A stretch of DNA of 59,650 nt, from positions 1 through 59,650 of IMG/VR virus record IMGVR_UViG_3300043431_000358; one strand, given 5' to 3'. The notes under the pieces are model-generated. The model was not told where the DNA came from. It saw nothing but the letters and a program-made list of their open reading frames with translations, and searched no databases. A program made the translations under genes and the position numbers. This DNA is from a virus. Positions 30,502 through 59,644 of this stretch are shown in pieces. The number at the start of each line of letters is the position of its first letter. Within the stretch, counting starts at the first letter, position 1.

Positions 30502-30974
30502 GCGAGCCGAGCTGGCTGGCCAACGCCAGGCTGGATCTGGGCCTGAGCGAGGTGCCGGGCGCCGCCAGCGCGCCGGCGATCGTGCGGATGTGGCAGTTGG
30601 TCAAGGCCCCCTTCAGCGACGACGCGACCCCCTGGTGCGGCGGGGCCTGCGGCGCCTGGTTCACCCGGGCCGGGTACGCGCCGCCGGCGGCCTGCTGGCG
30701 GGCCAAGAACTGGCTGGACTGGGGCCGGCCGCTCACCGAGCCCGTGCTGGGCTGCGTGGTGGTCTTCGGTCGGGACGGCGGTGGCCACGTGGCGCTGGCC
30801 GTGGGCCGCAACGAGCGCGGTGGCCTGGTGTGCCTGGGCGGGAACCAGGGAGACTGCGTGTCGATCGCGGCTTTCTCCTTCGACCGCGTGCTGGGATACC
30901 GGGTGCCGGTGGGCGACCGCAAGTACGACCCGCTACCGATGCTCAACGCCGACTTCAGCCGGAGCGAGGCTTGA
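30498..30974 (+). CDS. Endolysin, TIGR02594-type Cys/His peptidase
   Basis: A 158-aa cell-wall hydrolase of the NlpC/P60-CHAP-like TIGR02594 group. It has the likely catalytic Cys47 in 'TPWCGGACGAWFTRAGY' and His97 in 'GGHVALAVGRN', followed by 'CLGGNQGDCVSIAAF'. No signal peptide is visible, so export would depend on a holin. It lies between the membrane proteins and the spanins, the standard lysis order. Confidence 0.88.
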   Translation: MSEPSWLANARLDLGLSEVPGAASAPAIVRMWQLVKAPFSDDATPWCGGACGAWFTRAGYAPPAACWRAKNWLDWGRPLTEPVLGCVVVFGRDGGGHVALAVGRNERGGLVCLGGNQGDCVSIAAFSFDRVLGYRVPVGDRKYDPLPMLNADFSRSEA

Positions 30975-39484: not shown

Positions 39485-40378
39485 TCAGAACGGCGGCTTG
39501 TAGGAGGTGAGCTTGTCCTTTTGGACCTGCGTGAAGCGCTTGCCCTTGGACTCGACGAAGGCGATCAGCCGCTCAGGAGCGACGCACTTTCCGCTCTTCT
39601 CGTTCGGGATGGTCAACTGGTCCACCCAGGGCGGCAGCTTCTCGGTGAACTCTTCGTCGGTGTACTCCGGCGGGGCGGCTGGCGGCGGGGGCGGCTCTGG
39701 TGGCGCTTCAGGCGGGCCACGCCTACGGTCTTCCGTGCGCATGCGATCAGCACCCGCATCGTCGTCCACCGGATCGTCTTCCTCAGCCAGGCCGGTCACC
39801 GCCTTGAGCGTGTAGCGCTCCAGGTAGGAAAGCGTGCTGGCCCGCGCGTGCATCTTGTTCTTCGCCCCGCCCTCATCCGGCGGACCACCGAACGGCACGG
39901 CCTCGCTGTGGCCCAGCACGTGGCGCACGCGGCACTCCACGCGTATCCAGTCGCGCGCGTCCTCCAGGATCTGCCAACTGAAGCTCAGCCCGTGGCGCGA
40001 CATAGCCTCGGAGATACCGTCCACCCAGGCATACGAGTCGGCGTACTTTTTGCCCTTGAGCGGGCCGTCCTTGATCAGCCGGTTTCGGATGACATGCACG
40101 CCCTCGGCCTTGAAGGCTGCGAAGGCCGCGTTGTAGGCGTTCTCGGCCTCTCGGCGCTGCCAGCGTTCAAACACGTCAATCAGCCCGTTGACGTGCGCCA
40201 GGTCCATGTCCGGGCGCATGGCCGCAGTCTCGATGATGCGCATCAGCATGCTGGCGCCCGTGGCCGGCTGGGCCTGCTGGTGCACCACCTGGCCGGGGGC
40301 CATGGCCACAGCGTGGCGCGCGGTCTCCTGCAGCGGGTCGGACACGATGGTGGCATCCTGCACGGTGGTGGTGTTCAT
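39485..40378 (-). CDS. ERF-family ssDNA annealing protein
   Basis: A 297-aa recombinase of the ERF superfamily: 'AENAYNAAFAAFKAEGVHVI', 'ADSYAWVDGISEAMSRHGLS', 'CRVRHVLGHSEAVPFGGPPD' and 'ASTLSYLERYTLKAVTGLAE' followed by the acidic DDPVDDDAG are its hallmarks. A Pro linker leads to a small C-terminal part. Together with the exonuclease downstream it forms a two-component SynExo-like recombination system. Stop is 15 bp before the exonuclease start; start overlaps the repeat-protein stop (ATGA). Confidence 0.85.
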   Translation of the reverse strand: MNTTTVQDATIVSDPLQETARHAVAMAPGQVVHQQAQPATGASMLMRIIETAAMRPDMDLAHVNGLIDVFERWQRREAENAYNAAFAAFKAEGVHVIRNRLIKDGPLKGKKYADSYAWVDGISEAMSRHGLSFSWQILEDARDWIRVECRVRHVLGHSEAVPFGGPPDEGGAKNKMHARASTLSYLERYTLKAVTGLAEEDDPVDDDAGADRMRTEDRRRGPPEAPPEPPPPPAAPPEYTDEEFTEKLPPWVDQLTIPNEKSGKCVAPERLIAFVESKGKRFTQVQKDKLTSYKPPF

Positions 40379-41199
40379 TCCTCGCCCTCGGCGCCCATCT
40401 CGCGCAGTTCCGCGTTGATCATGTCGGTGAACAGGGTGTGAAGCTGATCGCGCACCGCGGCGCGGTGCTTCTCGAATACGGCATCAGCCTTCGCCCGCGC
40501 TTCTTCGTACGTCGAACAGCCTTTCGCCGCTTCGAACGCGGCCGTCAAGGCAGCGTTTGAAGTGGCGTCCCAGGCGTCCCAGGCGTCCCAGGCGTCCCAG
40601 GCGTCCCTGGCGTCCCTGGCGGCCCTGGCGTCCCAGGCGTCCCTGGCGTCCCTGGCGGCCCTGGCGGCCCTGGCGGCCCTGGCGGCCCTGGCGTCCCTGG
40701 CGGCCCTGGCGGCCCAGGCGTCCCTGGCGGCCCTGGCGGCCCTGGCGGCCTCACCCACCAAAGCAATGGCGGCAGTGCGATCAGCTTCGCCAAGCTCTGC
40801 CGTGATCGGGGCCAGCGCACGCAGCGCAGCCGCGTGCTCGGCAAGCTCTGGCACCTCCGCGAACCAAAGCGGCGCATGGACACGCCACATCCAATCCAGC
40901 GCCATGAACGATCTCTTGGCGCTCAGTGCCGGACCGCGGTTCGTGCCGGCCAGCTTGCCGGTGTAGCGAGCCTTCAACTCCTGGCGGTCAGCGGTCGGCA
41001 ACAAGTCGTTCCACGCGCGCCCGAAGGCGGCCAGCACCGGGTCAACGCAGGCCGGTGAGTCGCTGAAAGGCTCGCCGGAAAACATGCTCTCCAGTTCCAG
41101 CAGGCACGGGTCAGGCGCGCCCGGCTCGTGTTTCCCTGAGCCGAGTTGTAGCGCCTCGATCTGTTCGGGCGTGAGGTGGGGGGTGATGGGTTCGTTCAT
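40375..41199 (-). CDS. Protein with A-[RW]-[AD] tripeptide repeats
   Basis: A 274-aa protein. Residues 1-165 look ordered ('PITPHLTPEQIEALQLGSGK', 'FMALDWMWRVHAPLWFAEVP'). Then follows a 20-unit repeat of three residues (Ala-Arg/Trp-Ala/Asp) encoded by a 9-bp tandem repeat, and an ordered C-terminus ('FEKHRAAVRDQLHTLFTDMI'). The repeat should form one long, charged helix. Similar Ala-Arg-Asp runs occur in phage and bacterial proteins of unknown role. Start ATG 41199 overlaps the micro-gene upstream. Confidence 0.65.
   Translation of the reverse strand: MNEPITPHLTPEQIEALQLGSGKHEPGAPDPCLLELESMFSGEPFSDSPACVDPVLAAFGRAWNDLLPTADRQELKARYTGKLAGTNRGPALSAKRSFMALDWMWRVHAPLWFAEVPELAEHAAALRALAPITAELGEADRTAAIALVGEAARAARAARDAWAARAARDARAARAARAARAARDARDAWDARAARDARDAWDAWDAWDAWDATSNAALTAAFEAAKGCSTYEEARAKADAVFEKHRAAVRDQLHTLFTDMINAELREMGAEGEE
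40564..40752. repeat. 9-bp tandem repeat, 20 units plus a partial
   Basis: Twenty consecutive 9-bp units of GGCGTCCCA, GGCGTCCCT or GGCGGCCCT, and a variant final unit. The unit length keeps the reading frame of the leftward gene. Variation is at two positions of each unit and looks like ongoing expansion, contraction or homogenisation. Confidence 0.95.
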
Positions 41200-41312
41200 G
41201 GTCTTCCGAGGTGGATGTGGTGCCGCACGGCCTTGGCCAGCGCGGAGAGGATGGAGTGCCCGCTGGCGCGCAGGCCGAGGAATGTAAGCACGAATGGCTT
41301 GGCGATTCTCAT
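41196..41312 (-). CDS. 38-aa micro-protein
   Basis: A short gene with ATGA overlaps at both its start and its stop. It encodes 'RIAKPFVLTFLGLRASGHSI' and a basic C-terminus rich in His. The double coupling in the middle of a compact leftward operon supports translation; function unknown. Confidence 0.55.
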   Translation of the reverse strand: MRIAKPFVLTFLGLRASGHSILSALAKAVRHHIHLGRP

Positions 41313-41635
41313 AGCGCGGGCTCAGGCGGCACGTCGTCTGCAAACCAGCAGTTGGCCATGCGCTCGACGGTGGGCCAGCAACCAGGCGTCTGCAGGCAGG
41401 CGAACTGCTTGTCGTCGCTGTATCCGATGATCTGCCGCCACATGAACGACCGGTGCTGGTCGCTCTCTACGTCGCAGTGCGCGCCGGACACGAGAACCAG
41501 CGAGCGCACTTCCGGCATCTTGTCGCCGTCTCGGTACGGGCGCTTGGCTAGCCGGCCTATGACGGCCTCACGCGCTTTCGCGCCGGTTGCTTGTGCTGTC
41601 GCGCCCTGCGGCGCATTGGTCGGGTGTTCAGACAC
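41309..41635 (-). CDS. First protein of leftward operon, unknown
   Basis: A 108-aa protein starting at GTG with CCAAGGA upstream. 'GATAQATGAKAREAVIGRLA' then 'DGDKMPEVRSLVLVSGAHCD' and 'CWPTVERMANCWFADDVPPE'. As the first gene after the operator-controlled leftward promoter it is likely to be expressed early. No family is recognised. Confidence 0.6.
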   Translation of the reverse strand: MSEHPTNAPQGATAQATGAKAREAVIGRLAKRPYRDGDKMPEVRSLVLVSGAHCDVESDQHRSFMWRQIIGYSDDKQFACLQTPGCWPTVERMANCWFADDVPPEPAL

Positions 41636-41688
41636 TTCGGTCCTTGGAATCTCGTTGGTCTCGCACGAAATGCAGCGAGAGAGCCCGG

Positions 41689-41717
41689 ACTGTGCCTGCC
41701 ACGTGGCGCGGTGTCAA
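41689..41717 (-). promoter_or_regulatory. Leftward early promoter
   Basis: On the minus strand a perfect -35 (TTGACA, 41717 to 41712) is followed by a 17-bp spacer and a weak -10 (CACAGT). Operator copy 1 fills the spacer, so regulator binding would block polymerase. It would drive the genes from 41635 leftwards. Confidence 0.6.
41695..41709. promoter_or_regulatory. Operator-like site 1
   Basis: CCTGCCACGTGGCGC contains the perfect 10-bp palindrome GCCACGTGGC. It is the exact inverted copy of site 2 at 41756-41770 and sits between the -35 and -10 of the leftward promoter. It probably binds the HTH protein encoded at 41782. Confidence 0.7.
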
Positions 41718-41722
41718 CCCCG

Positions 41723-41750
41723 TTGATGGTTGGTGCACGTCCGCTATGAT
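41723..41750 (+). promoter_or_regulatory. Rightward promoter
   Basis: TTGATG and TATGAT are separated by 16 bp. Transcription would start near 41757, inside operator site 2, so the regulator could repress its own operon. Confidence 0.6.
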
Positions 41751-41755
41751 GTATT

Positions 41756-41770
41756 GCGCCACGTGGCAGG
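41756..41770. promoter_or_regulatory. Operator-like site 2
   Basis: GCGCCACGTGGCAGG is the exact reverse complement of site 1, with the same GCCACGTGGC core. It overlaps the expected start of the rightward transcript and also the AGGA that precedes the regulator gene. Confidence 0.7.
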
Positions 41771-41781
41771 AATGACGTAGC

Positions 41782-42054
41782 ATGCGCCGCATGGACAAAT
41801 ACCCGATTGAAGTTGCATCCATCCGGGCCCGCGTGGCTGCGCTACCCAACGTGCAGGCGTTCGCCGACCGCCACGGGCTGGCGCCTCGCACGCTGTACCG
41901 CATCGTGGCCTCGGCCAAACCGGACGCAGGGCGAAGTGCCAAGAAGTACCAGCCCAGCGCGCCGACCCTGCGGGTGCTGGCGCAGGTGTTCGACAAGCTG
42001 GACGCGGCGGCGGCAAAGCGCTCCCGCCGGGCCGACAAGAAGGCCGGCCGATGA
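41782..42054 (+). CDS. Small HTH regulator (Cro/CI-like role)
   Basis: A 90-aa basic protein. Residues 24-45 ('VQAFADRHGLAPRTLYRIVA') form a helix-turn-helix of the lambda-repressor type, and 'SAPTLRVLAQVFDKLDAAAA' adds a helix for dimerisation. The end is lysine/arginine-rich. No cleavable C-terminal domain is present, so it is Cro-like rather than a full CI. It lies directly downstream of two operator-like palindromes and is the first gene of the rightward replication block. Confidence 0.75.
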   Translation: MRRMDKYPIEVASIRARVAALPNVQAFADRHGLAPRTLYRIVASAKPDAGRSAKKYQPSAPTLRVLAQVFDKLDAAAAKRSRRADKKAGR

Positions 42055-45006: not shown

Positions 45007-45216
45007 ATGCCGCAAGACCTGACATCGATCGACCCAAAGGTGCAACGCCCTGACGTTGTGGCCAAGTGCCCGGCCTGCGGGCAGCAGACATTCCGCGTGA
45101 TCATCACTGACGGCGGCCACGGCCACGACGAATGGGGAGTCGTTTATTGGTTCGGCGGGGACGGGCATTGCGATGCGTGCGGGCACGCCGGGTACCACTC
45201 AGACAGCAGCCACTGA
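45007..45216 (+). CDS. Small zinc-ribbon protein
   Basis: A 69-aa protein with two CxxC knuckles, 'CPACG' (residues 21-25) and 'CDACGHAGYH' near the end, the typical four-Cys zinc ribbon. Located 14 bp after the Gp37/Gp68 gene. A nucleic-acid or protein-binding partner role is likely but untested. Confidence 0.7.
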   Translation: MPQDLTSIDPKVQRPDVVAKCPACGQQTFRVIITDGGHGHDEWGVVYWFGGDGHCDACGHAGYHSDSSH

Positions 45217-45221
45217 AGCCG

Positions 45222-47735
45222 ATGACCGACTACACCACGTTCCTGCGCCAGAAGATCAAGCTGGCCAGCTTCAAGGGATTCGAGGTTGCTGCCGAGGAAC
45301 TGAATCCGAAGCTCAAGCCGCACACGAAGGACATCGTCCGCTGGGCGGCGAAGGGTGGCAGCCGCGCCGTCTTTGCGAGCTTCGGCCTGCACAAGACGGT
45401 GACGGCGCTGGAGTGGTTCCGCCTGATGGGCATCTACCGGCCAGGCCTGCGCCTCAACGTGTGCCCGCTCGGCGTGCGGCAGGAGTTCATCCTTCAGGCG
45501 GTCGAGCACTTCCAGGGCGAGTTCGCGCTGGACCTGCGCTTCATTCGCACGGACAGCGAGATCGGCGATGAGCGCACGATCTACCTCACGAACTACGAGA
45601 GCGTGCGCGAGGGCAAGATCACGCCGCGCCTGTTCCGCGCGACCAACCTCGATGAGGCGAGCGTGCTGCGCAGCTACGGTAGCAAGACTTACCAGGAGTT
45701 CCTTCCGGCATTCGAGAGCGTCGAGTTCAAGCTGGTGAACACGGCCACGCCCAGCCCGAACCGGTTCAAGGAACTCATCCACTATGCCGGTTACCTGGGC
45801 GTGATGGACACCGGACAGGCGCTGACGAGGTTCTTCCAGCGTGACAGCGAGAAGGCCGGGAACCTGACGCTGTACCCGCACAAGGAACAAGAGTTCTGGT
45901 TGTGGGTCGCGAGCTGGGCAGTCTTCATCCAGCGGCCGAGCGACCTAGGGCACAGCGACGAAGGCTATGTACTGCCGGCGCTTGACGTGCGGTATCACGA
46001 GGTGCCGAGCGACTACACCAGGGCTGGCCACGAGAAGGACGGGCAGGCGCTCATGTTCACGGATCCAGCGATTGGCCTGAGCGCGGCGGCCACGGAGAAG
46101 CGCGACAGCATGCCGGCGCGCATTGCCAAGGTGGCTGAGATCGTCGCGGCGGATCCTGACGATAACTTCATCGTGTGGCACGACCTGGAAGACGAGCGCC
46201 ACGCCATCCAAGCCGTGCTCCCGGAGGCTGTGAGCGTGTGGGGCTCGCAGGATCTGGATGAGCGCGAAGCGCGCATCGTCGGCTTCGGAGATGGCCAGCA
46301 CCGGATCCTCTCGACCAAGCCGGTGATTGCCGGCAGCGGCTGCAACCTGCAGCGGTACTGCCACCGAGAGATCTTCGCAGGTGTCGGATTCAAGTTCAAC
46401 GACTTCATCCAGTCCATCCACCGCGTGCACCGCTTCGGCCAGAGCCGGCCAGTGCGCATCGACATCGTCCACACCGAGTCGGAGCGCGAGGTGCTGCGCA
46501 GCCTGCTGACGAAGTGGGCCAAGCACGACGAAATGCAAACCACCATGACCGACATCATCCGCAAGTACGGCCTGAACGAACTGGCCATGCAAGAGACACT
46601 GGCGCGCTCCATTGGCGTGAGGCGCATCGAGGTCAAGAGCGACCTTTACTGCGTGGCGAACAACGACTGCGTGGAAGAGGCGAAGCTGCAGCCCGACAAC
46701 TCGGTGGACCTGATAGTGACGTCGATCCCGTTCGCGAACCACTACGAATACTCTCCCTCATACAACGACTTCGGCCACACGGACGACAACGAGCACTTCT
46801 GGGCCCAGATGGAATTCCTCACGCCGGAGCTGTTCAGGATCCTGAAGCCGGGGCGCCTGGCGTGCATCCATGTCAAGAACCGCATCCGCTTTGGCAATGT
46901 CACGGGCCTTGGGTTCCCTACGGAGGACTACTTCCTGGAAGAGACGTCGATGCACTTCCGCAAGCATGGGTTGCCGAAGCTCGGCCTCGTGACGGTCGTG
47001 ACAGACGTCGTGCGGGAGAACAACCATACCTACCGGCTGGGCTACACGGAGATGTGCAAAGACGGCACGACCAAGGGTGTCGGCTGCTCGGAGTACATCG
47101 TCATCGTTCGCAAGCCTCAGACCGACCTGTCGCGCGGCTACGCCGATGTGCCAGTGGTGAAGTCCAAGGGGGACTACAGCCTCGCGCGCTGGCAGGTGGA
47201 TGCGCACGCGCTGTGGCGGTCGAACGGCAACAGGTTCCTGTCCGCCGAAGAGATGGCACTGATGGGCCCGGCGAAGCTGGCGAAGTTCTTCACCGACGAC
47301 AGCTTGCGGCGGATCTACGACTTCGAGCACCACGTCAAGATCGGCGATGAACTGCTGGCGCGTGGCGCGCTGCCATCGACCTTCATGAGTCTGGCGCCCG
47401 GCAGCCACCATAGCGAGGTCTGGCACGACGTGGTGCGCATGATCACGCTCAACAGCGACCAGTCGCGCCGGGCCGTGGAGAAGCACGTCTGCCCGCTGCA
47501 GTTCGACATCGTCGATCGGCTGATCGAGCGCTACAGCAACAAGGGCGAACGCGTCTATGACCCGTTCTCCGGGCTGGGCACCGTGCCGTATCGGGCCATC
47601 CTAAAGGGTCGCACAGGCGGCGGGTCGGAACTGAACGCAGATTACTTCCTTGACCAGGTGCACTACCTCAAGAGCGCCGAACAGCAGGTGTCGATGCCGT
47701 CTCTGTTCGACCTGGAAGATGAGGTTTCACAATGA
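45222..47735 (+). CDS. SNF2-type helicase fused to DNA methyltransferase
   Basis: An 837-aa fusion. The N-terminal half is a superfamily 2 helicase: a weak Walker A 'ASFGLHKT' (52-59), 'NLDEAS' (142-147), and motif VI 'QSIHRVHRFGQSRP' (397-410). The C-terminal half is an N4/N6-type methyltransferase: 'DLIVTSIPF' (496-504) stands where the catalytic (S/D)PPY motif lies, and 'DPFSGLGTV' (about 780-788) is the SAM-binding motif I, giving a beta-type permuted order. 'TSIPF' departs from (D/N/S)PPY, so activity needs testing. Start ATG is chosen at the first helicase homology, 6 bp after the zinc-ribbon gene. Confidence 0.82.
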   Translation: MTDYTTFLRQKIKLASFKGFEVAAEELNPKLKPHTKDIVRWAAKGGSRAVFASFGLHKTVTALEWFRLMGIYRPGLRLNVCPLGVRQEFILQAVEHFQGEFALDLRFIRTDSEIGDERTIYLTNYESVREGKITPRLFRATNLDEASVLRSYGSKTYQEFLPAFESVEFKLVNTATPSPNRFKELIHYAGYLGVMDTGQALTRFFQRDSEKAGNLTLYPHKEQEFWLWVASWAVFIQRPSDLGHSDEGYVLPALDVRYHEVPSDYTRAGHEKDGQALMFTDPAIGLSAAATEKRDSMPARIAKVAEIVAADPDDNFIVWHDLEDERHAIQAVLPEAVSVWGSQDLDEREARIVGFGDGQHRILSTKPVIAGSGCNLQRYCHREIFAGVGFKFNDFIQSIHRVHRFGQSRPVRIDIVHTESEREVLRSLLTKWAKHDEMQTTMTDIIRKYGLNELAMQETLARSIGVRRIEVKSDLYCVANNDCVEEAKLQPDNSVDLIVTSIPFANHYEYSPSYNDFGHTDDNEHFWAQMEFLTPELFRILKPGRLACIHVKNRIRFGNVTGLGFPTEDYFLEETSMHFRKHGLPKLGLVTVVTDVVRENNHTYRLGYTEMCKDGTTKGVGCSEYIVIVRKPQTDLSRGYADVPVVKSKGDYSLARWQVDAHALWRSNGNRFLSAEEMALMGPAKLAKFFTDDSLRRIYDFEHHVKIGDELLARGALPSTFMSLAPGSHHSEVWHDVVRMITLNSDQSRRAVEKHVCPLQFDIVDRLIERYSNKGERVYDPFSGLGTVPYRAILKGRTGGGSELNADYFLDQVHYLKSAEQQVSMPSLFDLEDEVSQ

Positions 47736-47955: not shown

Positions 47956-48525
47956 ATGCTGCGGCTCATCGTGGACATCAAGGGCCAGTTGCGGTCGTTC
48001 GACGCGCGGTGCCCAGGGCTGGAGAAGTTCCTTGCGGAGGCTGAGGTGCTGGACCCGGCCGCGGTGAAGGTCAATGCCGTGGAGCTGGTGGGAAAGAAGC
48101 AGCGCAAGGCGAAGCCCAACGCCAAGCCGAAGCCGGCGACCGACATCCCGTGCCCGTGCCAAGCCATCGCGGAGCTGTACGAAGAGAAGCTGCCGGAGCT
48201 GGCGGGCATCCAGTCCTTCGACGGCCCGCTGTGGGAGGAGCGGCAGGAGCACATGCGAGAGATGTGGGGCTGGATCCTCACGAGCGAGAAGCGCGACGGG
48301 ACGCGGCGCGCCACGACAGCCGCAGAGGCCATGGAATGGCTGGGCGAGTTCTTCGGCCGGGTCAACCTGATCGGCTGGATGATGGGGCGTGAGAACCGAG
48401 GTGTCGAACACGCAAAATGGAAGGCCGACCTCGATTACCTCATCCGCGGGCAGAAGGTCTGGGAGAAGGTCATTGCCGAATCGAACGTGGTCATCAAGGC
48501 TCAACGGGCCGGGGGTGGCCGGTGA
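47956..48525 (+). CDS. Probable helicase loader / replication protein
   Basis: A 189-aa protein. The mid-part 'CQAIAELYEEKLPELAGIQS' followed by 'DGPLWEERQEHMREMWGWIL' is the short 'I-x-x-LY-x-x-LP' module found in phage replication initiators and DnaC-like loaders, and 'WLGEFFGRVNLIGWMMGR' fits its C-terminal DNA-binding-like helix. The N-terminus is basic and linker-like. It overlaps the DnaB gene start (TGATG), which supports a helicase-loading role. Confidence 0.65.
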   Translation: MLRLIVDIKGQLRSFDARCPGLEKFLAEAEVLDPAAVKVNAVELVGKKQRKAKPNAKPKPATDIPCPCQAIAELYEEKLPELAGIQSFDGPLWEERQEHMREMWGWILTSEKRDGTRRATTAAEAMEWLGEFFGRVNLIGWMMGRENRGVEHAKWKADLDYLIRGQKVWEKVIAESNVVIKAQRAGGGR

Positions 48526-49985
48526 TGACTGAAGGGCGAAGGATCCGAAAGAGCATCGCTTTGTCTGGCGCCCCCGCAGCGGACCCGCGTGACGATGTGT
48601 CGCGTCTGCGTGTGCCGCCCCATAGCTCTGAAGCGGAGCAGTCGGTGCTGGGCGCGCTGCTGCTGGACAACAGCGCGTGGGATCGCGCCGGTGATCTCCT
48701 GTCCGCAAGCGACTTCTACCGGTACGAGCACAAGCTGATCTACGAGGCGATCTGCGGCCTGATCGCGGCCAGCAAGCCGGCGGATGTGGTCACGGTGCAC
48801 GAGGTGCTGGAGCGGGCCGGGAAGGCCCAGGAAGTCGGCGGCCTGGTCTACCTGAACGACCTGGCGCAGAGCGTGCCCAGCGCCGCCAACATCCGCCGCT
48901 ACAGCGAGATCGTGCGCGAGCGGGCGATCCTGCGCAAGCTGATCGCGGCCAGCGACGAGATCGCGACCAACGCATTCAACCCGCAGGGGAAGAGCGCTGC
49001 CGAGGTGCTCGACGCGGCGCAGAGCCTGGTGATCCAGGTTGCTGAATCCGGCTCCAAGGCGAACGATGACTGGGACGGTATAGGCGGCCTGGCAATCCGC
49101 TTCGCCGACGAGCTGAGCGAGTTCTCGATGGGAACCAAGGCGCCGGACGTAATCCCCACTGGCCTTGACGATCTGGATGAAAAGCTCAACGGCGGCCCGC
49201 GGCCTGGCGAGGTGGTGACCATCGGCATGCGCAGCGGCATGGGAAAGACGGCGCTGGGCCTGACGATACTGGCCACGGCTGCTGGGAAGGGCGAGCCCTG
49301 CGGCATGTTCTCGATGGAGATGCCGAAGCAGCAGGTGAACATGCGCATGGTGTCCATGATGTCCTATGTCCACCTGACCAAGCTCAAGCGCCCCGAGCGA
49401 CTGAACGACATCGACTGGGGAAAGATCAGCGACGCGACGGAGCACATCCAGGCGCTGCCAATCCACATCAACGACCAAAGCGGCCTGACGATCAACCAGA
49501 TCCGCGGCAAGGCCCGCGCGCTGCGGCGCAAGCTGGGCGGCCGGCTGCGGGTGCTGGTGGTCGATCACCTGGCGCTGACGCGCGGCAGTGACCCGAAGAT
49601 GCTGAGGACCTACCAACTGGCCGAGGTGACATCTGGCCTCAAGGCGCTGGCGAAGGAGCTTCACTGCGTGGTGTACCTGCTGGTGCAGATCAACCGGGCG
49701 ACCGATGGGCGGCCCGACTCGATGCCGCAGTTGGCCGATATCCGCGACACGTCGAGCGTGGAAGACGACAGCGACATCGTGGTGTTCGGCCACCGCGAGT
49801 ACAAGAACCACCCGGACCTGGCGGACGAGTGGAAGTACTTCGGCGAGTTGTCTGTCGCCAAACACCGGGACGGCGAGCTGGGCCGCATCTCCGTGATGTT
49901 CGTGGGCGAGAACGTGCGCTGGGCGAACTGGACGAAAGACGTGCCCACGCCGCGCAGCAAGACCATCGTGAAGAAGGATCTTTGA
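48525..49985 (+). CDS. dnaB: Replicative DNA helicase, DnaB-like
   Basis: A 486-aa helicase. The N-terminal domain ('PPHSSEAEQSVLGALLLDNS', 'FYRYEHKLIYEAICGLIAAS') and the RecA-like C-domain are complete: Walker A 'GMRSGMGKT' (234-242), 'MFSMEMPKQQVNMRMVSMMS', Walker B 'LRVLVVDHLAL', and 'LQINRATDGRPD'-type motif H3/H4 ('LLVQINRATDGRPDSMPQLA'). It would unwind phage DNA at the fork for host polymerase, since no phage polymerase is visible. Start is ATG 48525 (GTG 48522 also possible). Confidence 0.93.
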   Translation: MTEGRRIRKSIALSGAPAADPRDDVSRLRVPPHSSEAEQSVLGALLLDNSAWDRAGDLLSASDFYRYEHKLIYEAICGLIAASKPADVVTVHEVLERAGKAQEVGGLVYLNDLAQSVPSAANIRRYSEIVRERAILRKLIAASDEIATNAFNPQGKSAAEVLDAAQSLVIQVAESGSKANDDWDGIGGLAIRFADELSEFSMGTKAPDVIPTGLDDLDEKLNGGPRPGEVVTIGMRSGMGKTALGLTILATAAGKGEPCGMFSMEMPKQQVNMRMVSMMSYVHLTKLKRPERLNDIDWGKISDATEHIQALPIHINDQSGLTINQIRGKARALRRKLGGRLRVLVVDHLALTRGSDPKMLRTYQLAEVTSGLKALAKELHCVVYLLVQINRATDGRPDSMPQLADIRDTSSVEDDSDIVVFGHREYKNHPDLADEWKYFGELSVAKHRDGELGRISVMFVGENVRWANWTKDVPTPRSKTIVKKDL

Positions 49986-52563: not shown

Positions 52564-52655
52564 CAAACTTTGCCAGCGAACCTGCCGCGTTTCGTCAGTT
52601 CAAGGCCCGTGCCACGGCTTAAACCCCATGGCACGGAACTGGCAACTCAGAAGCC

Positions 52656-56627: not shown

Positions 56628-56824
56628 GATTGGCTCCTTTCAGCCGCATTCGCCTGCGCACACCAGATCTGCGCCTGCCGCCAGTCGTAGCGGGCCTGCT
56701 GGCTCACGCCGAGTCCCCATGCGCCACGCGGCAGATCGTTGCATTCCCAGACCCAGCATCCCTGCCGCGCATCCCACCCGCGGCGGATGCGCGGCAGCAT
56801 GGGCCGCCGTTCCTCTTCGTTCAT
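56624..56824 (-). CDS. Small Trp-rich protein, unknown
   Basis: A 66-aa protein: 'RRPMLPRIRRGWDARQGCWV WECNDLPRG' and 'QARYDWRQAQIWCAQANAAE'. Rich in Trp and Arg, with three Cys. Overlaps the next gene by ATGA. Function unknown. Confidence 0.5.
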   Translation of the reverse strand: MNEEERRPMLPRIRRGWDARQGCWVWECNDLPRGAWGLGVSQQARYDWRQAQIWCAQANAAERSQS

Positions 56825-56907
56825 GGACTGCGCTCCAAAAGCGCCGGGGAATCCGCCCCGGCTCGGTGTGTGACAGCACTGGCCAGCCGCCGGGCTGGCC
56901 GCTGGTG

Positions 56908-57138
56908 TCAGCGGTAGCCGTTCGCGCCATCGAGGCGCGGCGTGGCAACTGGCTGCGCGGTGGCTCGCTCGATAGCGCACGCGTGGTGGTAGTCCAGGCT
57001 GGCCACCGAATACGCGGCCCTGGTGGCCTTGGTGGAGTCGGCCACCATCGCATCCCACGCAGCCTGCAGGCGCTGGCGGGCCGCCCAGCCGATCACCGGC
57101 TTGCCAAGGCCATTCAGGGGCGTGTTGCTGGTGTCCAT
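56908..57138 (-). CDS. Small helical protein, unknown
   Basis: A 76-aa protein ('PLNGLGKPVIGWAARQRLQA', 'STKATRAAYSVASLDYHHAC') with a strong AAGGAG site. Not recognised. Confidence 0.55.
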   Translation of the reverse strand: MDTSNTPLNGLGKPVIGWAARQRLQAAWDAMVADSTKATRAAYSVASLDYHHACAIERATAQPVATPRLDGANGYR

Positions 57139-57170
57139 GCTCAATCTCCTTGGTGTCGTGCCGGAGCGGG

Positions 57171-57338
57171 TCAAAACGCGACGGTGCGGAACACCGTGCT
57201 CGTGCGGCCGTCGATGCGCACGAAGCGCACCGTCTTGCCGTTGCCGCTGCGCTCGGCGACCACATGCCGACGCGAGTCACCGGTCAGGCGCACTGACTGG
57301 CCAGGCCGCAGGGCTGCAATCTTTTGGTCTGTGGTCAT
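57171..57338 (-). CDS. First protein of leftward block, unknown
   Basis: A 55-aa basic, beta-rich protein ('KIAALRPGQSVRLTGDSRRH', 'GKTVRFVRIDGRTSTVFRTV') starting at ATG with CGGAGAG upstream. As the first gene leftwards from the repeat-bearing control region it may be an early protein, possibly nucleic-acid-binding given its charge. Confidence 0.55.
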   Translation of the reverse strand: MTTDQKIAALRPGQSVRLTGDSRRHVVAERSGNGKTVRFVRIDGRTSTVFRTVAF

Positions 57339-57614
57339 GTTGCTCTCCGTCTGGTTTCGCAGTCCGCCCATCGCCGACTGCATGCCATCAACGATTGCGA
57401 GATGCGTGCCATGGCCGAAAGGTGCCAAACGCGGCCAAAGTCACGCCCAGGGCGACGAAACGCGGCAGGTGAGCCCAGCCGGACGACCAAACGCGGCGCG
57501 CGGCGTGACGCGGACCGTCACCCGTGAAGCTGGCCCGCGTCTTGCCGCGCCGACCCGATCGGGTGACTTTGTGCGTTATGCTCCGGCCGAAGTAAACGCA
57601 CAACGGGGTGATAC
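57339..57614. promoter_or_regulatory. Divergent control region with repeats
   Basis: No gene is visible. It separates the leftward block (from 57338) and the rightward block (from 57615). It contains three direct 9-bp repeats 31 bp apart, an inverted GTGACTTTG pair, and a 9-bp inverted repeat TTGTGCGTT/AACGCACAA (57569-57577 and 57595-57603) close to the rightward start. I could not fix convincing -35/-10 boxes. Confidence 0.6.
57427..57497. repeat. Three iteron-like direct repeats, 31-bp period
   Basis: AAACGCGGC occurs at 57427-57435, 57458-57466 and 57489-57497, with exact 31-bp spacing (about three helical turns). Flanks are partly conserved (GACCAAACGCGGC / GACGAAACGCGGC). The helical phasing suggests cooperative protein binding, as in operators or replication iterons. 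Confidence 0.75.
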
Positions 57615-57938
57615 ATGGCGACGGTGATGAAGCGGTGCCCGACCTGTCGGGGGCTGCACGCGGTGGGGCAGTGCAAGACCGATGGCGAGGTGGCCGGGCT
57701 GCTGGCCGTGGCCGCGCCGGCCCCAGCACCTGCGGCGCCACCGGCCCCAGCAGCAAAGCGGTCGGCCCGGGTCGCCCAGGCCAAGGCCGTGGAGAAATCA
57801 GCCGCCGCGGTCCGCCAGCAGGCCTACCGGTCGCGCGGCGGCCCGGAGGTGAAGCAGGCGAACACCGAACGCATGCGCGCCGCCAGGGCAGCGAAGAAGG
57901 CGGCCAAGCTGGCCGCGGCGAACGACAAGGAGATGTGA
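57615..57938 (+). CDS. Small basic protein with CxxC, unknown
   Basis: A 107-aa protein with an early 'CPTCRGLHAVGQC' zinc-like cluster, an Ala/Pro linker and a basic C-terminal helix ('ERMRAARAAKKAAKLAAAND'). First gene of the rightward block. Its shape fits a DNA- or RNA-binding early protein, which is inference. Confidence 0.6.
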   Translation: MATVMKRCPTCRGLHAVGQCKTDGEVAGLLAVAAPAPAPAAPPAPAAKRSARVAQAKAVEKSAAAVRQQAYRSRGGPEVKQANTERMRAARAAKKAAKLAAANDKEM

Positions 57939-57941
57939 CCC

Positions 57942-58166
57942 ATGGATTACCCGATCAAGCCGCGCGCCGACACTGCGCGCCTCAAGCCCCGCATGCGTCC
58001 GCTGCGCCCTGGGAGCGACCTGGCCCCGGGCGGCCAGCTCTGGCTGTGCCACCGGCCCGATGTCTTCCTCTGCGGCATCGGCCATACCCAGGTCGAGGCG
58101 TGGGAGGCGGCGCACGATGTGCCGGTGTACCAGCGCACCCCCTTTGCAGTCCGGACCATCTCGTGA
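57942..58166 (+). CDS. Small protein, unknown
   Basis: A 74-aa protein ('KPRADTARLKPRMRPLRPGS', 'WLCHRPDVFLCGIGHTQVEA'). It starts 3 bp after the previous stop with AAGGAGATGT upstream. No family is recognised. Confidence 0.55.
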   Translation: MDYPIKPRADTARLKPRMRPLRPGSDLAPGGQLWLCHRPDVFLCGIGHTQVEAWEAAHDVPVYQRTPFAVRTIS

Positions 58167-59635: not shown

Positions 59636-59644
59636 TTATACACA
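59636..59644 (+). promoter_or_regulatory. DnaA-box-like 9-mer at window end
   Basis: TTATACACA differs by one base from the TTATCCACA consensus. With TTGTCCACA at 4-12 it forms two similar sites 18 bp apart when the ends are joined. They could be DnaA or packaging-related sites; chance occurrence is not excluded. Confidence 0.35.

Follow-up and report, generated by a model that had tools for sequence, protein, structure and literature searches.

The 59,650-bp virus record analysed here in full (the window) carries towards its right end a 276-bp non-coding gap between two outward-pointing gene clusters, in which the 9-mer AAACGCGGC occurs three times, exactly, always on the plus strand and with start-to-start distances of 31 and 31 bp. 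The trio is real and pure chance is an unlikely source for it, though it was picked by eye among many possible patterns. In our reading, to which we give about an even chance, the gap is a divergent promoter/operator region whose repeats and palindrome are putative regulator sites; the array itself is lineage-specific and fast-evolving. The original prediction had placed the repeats between divergent operons, which the start codons bear out (leftward ATG at 57338, rightward ATG at 57615). The features of the region are as follows:

57171-57338, minus strand: first gene of the leftward cluster (55 aa; RBS GGAGAG)
57339-57614, no strand: non-coding divergent intergenic region (276 bp, 66% G+C)
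57427-57435, plus strand: repeat copy 1, AAACGCGGC
57440-57446, plus strand: GTCACSC site 1
57458-57466, plus strand: repeat copy 2, AAACGCGGC
57489-57497, plus strand: repeat copy 3, AAACGCGGC
57503-57509, minus strand: GTCACSC site 2, left arm of the 17-bp palindrome
57505-57521, no strand: 17-bp imperfect palindrome GTGACGcggacCGTCAC (GTGACG-N5-CGTCAC)
57517-57523, plus strand: GTCACSC site 3, right arm of the 17-bp palindrome
57553-57564, no strand: perfect 12-bp palindrome ACCCGATCGGGT
57561-57567, minus strand: GTCACSC site 4, which with site 1 gives CAAAGTCAC/GTGACTTTG
57569-57603, no strand: 9-bp inverted repeat TTGTGCGTT-N17-AACGCACAA, 11 bp before the rightward ATG
57615-57938, plus strand: first gene of the rightward cluster (107 aa; RBS GGGGTGA)

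The left part of the window encodes the terminase small and large subunits, portal, protease, major head protein, tape measure and tail proteins, while the middle part holds RecE-like and Erf-like recombination genes, an O-like initiator and a DnaB helicase. The rightward cluster runs to an HNH endonuclease and the right genome end, and the terminase and head genes begin at the left end. A contig 88% identical to the window (L005) starts at the same base as its left end, and a second relative, G011/L113, has both ends in common with it. As the same ends recur in independent contigs, they are probably physical (cos) ends, and the window is probably a near-complete linear tailed-phage genome, judging from this coincidence of ends. 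DnaA-box-like sequences, TTGTCCACA at position 4 and TTATACACA at 59636, lie either side of the end junction, and TTGTCCACA is also found near the right end of the G011 relative (58028). Elsewhere in the window, 45132-47735 encodes an 867-aa protein with a phage DNA helicase family match over most of its length and a C-terminal N6/N4 DNA methylase domain.

The distance of 31 bp corresponds to 2.95 turns at 10.5 bp per turn, so that the earlier claim of a common helix face is approximately right, with an angular drift of about 34 degrees across the three-copy array. Copies 1 and 3 have CCAAACGCGGC (11 nt) in common, and copies 2 and 3 agree at 15/17 nt going upstream. Outside the 9-mer, agreement between the 31-bp units is limited to 5, 6 and 10 of 22 positions, which argues that the three copies are separate short sites and not the product of a recent tandem duplication. 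To assess the role of chance we took as criterion an exact 9-mer triple at equal spacing of 9-80 bp; such a triple arose in one of 700 order-3 Markov genomes, one of 100 local triplet shuffles and, for the gap on its own, one of 20,000 first-order shuffles. Lag 31 is the top self-similarity lag in the window (0.52). Regardless of position, AAACGCGGC is at most weakly over-represented, with 4 matches against 1.06 expected, three of which are the array itself and the fourth an isolated copy at 52584 on the minus strand. Only one other equal-spaced 9-mer array occurs in the window, the 9-bp tandem repeat of 40.56-40.75 kb, comprising about 20 copies of TGGCGTCCC (40563-40747) in or beside the leftward ORF 40375-41343, which adjoins the Erf-like gene.

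The trio is accompanied by further short sites. GTCACSC occurs 30 times in the whole genome, four of these inside 130 bp of the gap, and a cluster of this kind appeared in none of 200 simulated genomes, a figure that flatters the motif because it was defined after the gap had been inspected. Two of the four sites form the arms of the 17-bp palindrome GTGACGcggacCGTCAC, which is the best operator candidate of the gap; no other match to GTGACG-N5-CGTCAC with fewer than three mismatches occurs in the window. A consensus scan of the gap region found no sigma-70-like promoter or terminator, the sigma-70 consensus being one that may not be that of the host. Both the trio, which exceeds chance, and the presence of four GTCACSC sites within 130 bp support the operator reading.

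A comparison with a relative bears most directly on the array. One colinear relative covers the gap, namely G011/L113 (58,042 bp, with aligned blocks mostly 75-90% identical to the window), and it was retrieved by the HNH query only; relatives retrieved via terminase or DnaB lack either the region or the pattern. A blastn match joins 57393-57548 to L113 7660-7816 (72%), and the alignment of the gap is 69% identical over 161 columns, without indels from copy 1 to the palindrome. The gene left of the gap differs, encoding a DUF932-like protein of 366 aa in L113, and identity drops to about 40% in the first rightward protein. Beside the gap, cassettes have been exchanged, with several small leftward ORFs at 56640-57338 of the window in the place of the DUF932-like gene at L113 6150-7580. 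The gap thus remains alignable between replaced genes on its left and a much diverged first gene on its right, which supports the operator reading. We rejected the gap as coding sequence, since its mismatches against L113 have no codon phase, while those of a control gene (57942-58166) do.

Within this alignment, the 12-nt context of copy 1, GCCAAACGCGGC, is identical in L113 (12/12), copy 2 is lost (3/9 match) and copy 3 reads AAATACGGC (7/9 match). Poor conservation in relatives, the first half of the refuting condition set by the original prediction, is what L113 shows: only copy 1 is exact there, and the trio does not survive as an array. Repeat columns match in 19/27 cases and the remaining columns in 92/134, so that the repeats are not preferentially conserved, and lag-31 self-similarity in L113 is at background (0.304). 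The 17-bp palindrome is 16/17 identical, which is not significant alone, as column permutation yields an equal 17-column window in 40% of trials; the best-conserved blocks of the gap likewise fall within chance (permutation, p about 0.4). The perfect palindrome ACCCGATCGGGT is absent from L113. The intact context of copy 1 and the palindrome, joined without indels and without coding phase, speak for the operator reading, which is in turn weakened by the loss of copy 2, the mutation of copy 3, the background lag-31 signal and the lack of better conservation in the repeat columns. With a single relative compared, weak constraint on the array may nevertheless exist.

These results lend weight to a serious rival, which we consider possible if rather doubtful: a control region exists here, but the exact 31-bp AAACGCGGC trio has no function of its own and is a fortuitous or neutral pattern, picked from the many that a GC-rich phage genome can offer. 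Consistent with this, the trio is not kept in L113 and its columns are no more conserved than the others in the gap, one-mismatch copies of AAACGCGGC are not enriched in the window (19 against 23.9 expected), and a search of 84,980 genomes for the triple pattern at 31 bp gave three matches, which we set aside as tandem repeat arrays in unrelated genomes. Against it stand the low frequency of such a triple, expected by chance anywhere in a genome of this composition at about 0.1-1%, and the location of the trio inside a divergent non-coding gap beside other clustered sites. Should the array be neutral, it would serve as a caution that a striking, statistically unusual spaced repeat can vanish in a relative whose identity is about 80-89% across most of the aligned genome.

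According to the operator reading, the gap would drive both the leftward cluster of small genes and the rightward cluster toward the HNH endonuclease and the right end. One regulator would occupy the three AAACGCGGC copies, its molecules sitting next to each other on roughly the same face of the helix, a second factor may act at the GTGACG-N5-CGTCAC palindrome, and both clusters would be repressed or switched together. The operator array of the original prediction is plausible in its setting: the gap is divergent and non-coding, and it contains an inverted repeat, a palindrome and a cluster of short sites. The loss of the trio as an array in the relative counts against it. No HTH_3 repressor was found in the genome, no PF00589 tyrosine integrase in the window or G011, and no RDF among the proteins scanned; the missing repressor and integrase, together with the missing sigma-70-like promoter, further weaken the reading. 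By position only, the product of 57615-57938 is a candidate regulator. It has a Cys-rich N-terminus and basic C-terminal helices and gave no family match, and its AlphaFold model is poor and too unreliable to use (pTM 0.27). It is conceivable, if unlikely, that the trio and palindrome together serve as operator for a small phage regulator of a new kind, such as this Cys-rich basic protein. Such a regulator would govern both clusters with neither a classical repressor nor an integrase, and the number of its sites would vary among related phages. If the sites bind a phage regulator, they would locate one of two main control regions in an uncultured family of cos-ended tailed phages, to which none of the named phage records searched is closely related, and would offer a defined stretch of 110 bp with which to look for the regulator.

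Phage 186 offers a precedent for a mechanism of this general kind: its Apl protein recognises direct repeats within the early control region, three adjacent sites are needed for efficient binding, and both promoters are repressed (PMC7498355). Like the window array, the operators of 186 Apl and P2 Cox consist of short, helically phased direct repeats within the control region of a phage. However, Apl and RDF repeats lie one turn apart (10-11 bp) whereas those of the trio are three turns apart (31 bp), and the 186 promoters face each other while the clusters of the window point outward; the array is not a member of the Apl family. A binding array for an RDF (Xis/Cox/Apl) was rejected on the basis of the spacing, about three turns instead of one, and because no tyrosine integrase was found.

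The original prediction also proposed a replication origin. This reading, in which a phage initiator would bind the repeats as iterons, found no support, and we consider it highly improbable. Three exact 9-mers at a constant 31-bp spacing are iteron-like in form only; like the lambdoid iterons of ori-lambda, to which the O protein binds, they are short direct repeats, several in number and evenly spaced. A lambdoid origin is located within gene O and has four to six nearly invariant iterons beside an AT-rich tract (PMC7466680), whereas the window array is intergenic and GC-rich and lies 8-9 kb from the O-like gene. An adjacent AT-rich unwinding tract is absent: A+T is 0.23-0.35 across the repeats and at most 0.5 in the flanking 40-bp windows, and the AT-rich peaks of the genome all lie outside the gap. 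The O-like initiator (47956-48525) and the DnaB helicase (48417-49985) are both 8-9 kb off, no initiator gene adjoins the array, and the flanking genes gave no replication family match. In addition, with one exact copy in L113 the array is not conserved, unlike the near-identical lambdoid iterons (PMC7466680).

Also improbable, in our view, is an element acting at the RNA level, in which leader hairpins or a small RNA would arise from the gap and the repeats would be by-products. The segment 57495-57555 folds better than its shuffles (z = -2.5 on the plus and -3.1 on the minus strand), and a hairpin can form from the inverted repeat that precedes the rightward ATG; on the other hand, the L113 counterpart folds no better than shuffles (z = +0.97 and +0.19) and the gap has no Rfam match. 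As the folding signal is missing in L113, a conserved RNA hairpin was rejected.

Similar DNA was not found in named phages and plasmids, and the two-copy pattern gave three matches in viral contigs, all of them in unrelated sequences. Direct queries with the rightward flanking genes gave no close relatives in viral contigs or named phages. For the product of 57171-57338, the only close relatives in the same collections are those of three contigs (L002-L004), 52% identical and not the first of a divergent pair there; none of the three has a divergent gap at the homologue. In one of the unrelated sequences with the two-copy pattern, the phage contig L085 (436-500), GCAGGAAACGCGG occurs three times in non-coding DNA between apparent terminase small- and large-subunit genes, the first spacing being 30 bp and the second 31 bp.

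The same phage has a second divergent control region at 41636-41781, which contains two perfect GCCACGTGGC palindromes (41698 and 41758) with a promoter-like site, TTGATG-16-TATGAT, between them; 41782-42054 encodes a 90-aa weak-HTH product. It resembles the gap at 57.4 kb in being divergent and intergenic with symmetric sites, but differs in that its palindromes are conserved in the relative, a conservation that the 57.4-kb array does not share: both are exact in G011/L113 (39878 and 39937, on the reverse complement of the record), at a spacing of 59 compared with 60 in the window. This region is a stronger operator candidate than the 57.4-kb repeat trio. A third GCCACGTGGC is found at 30784 and is also kept in the relative.
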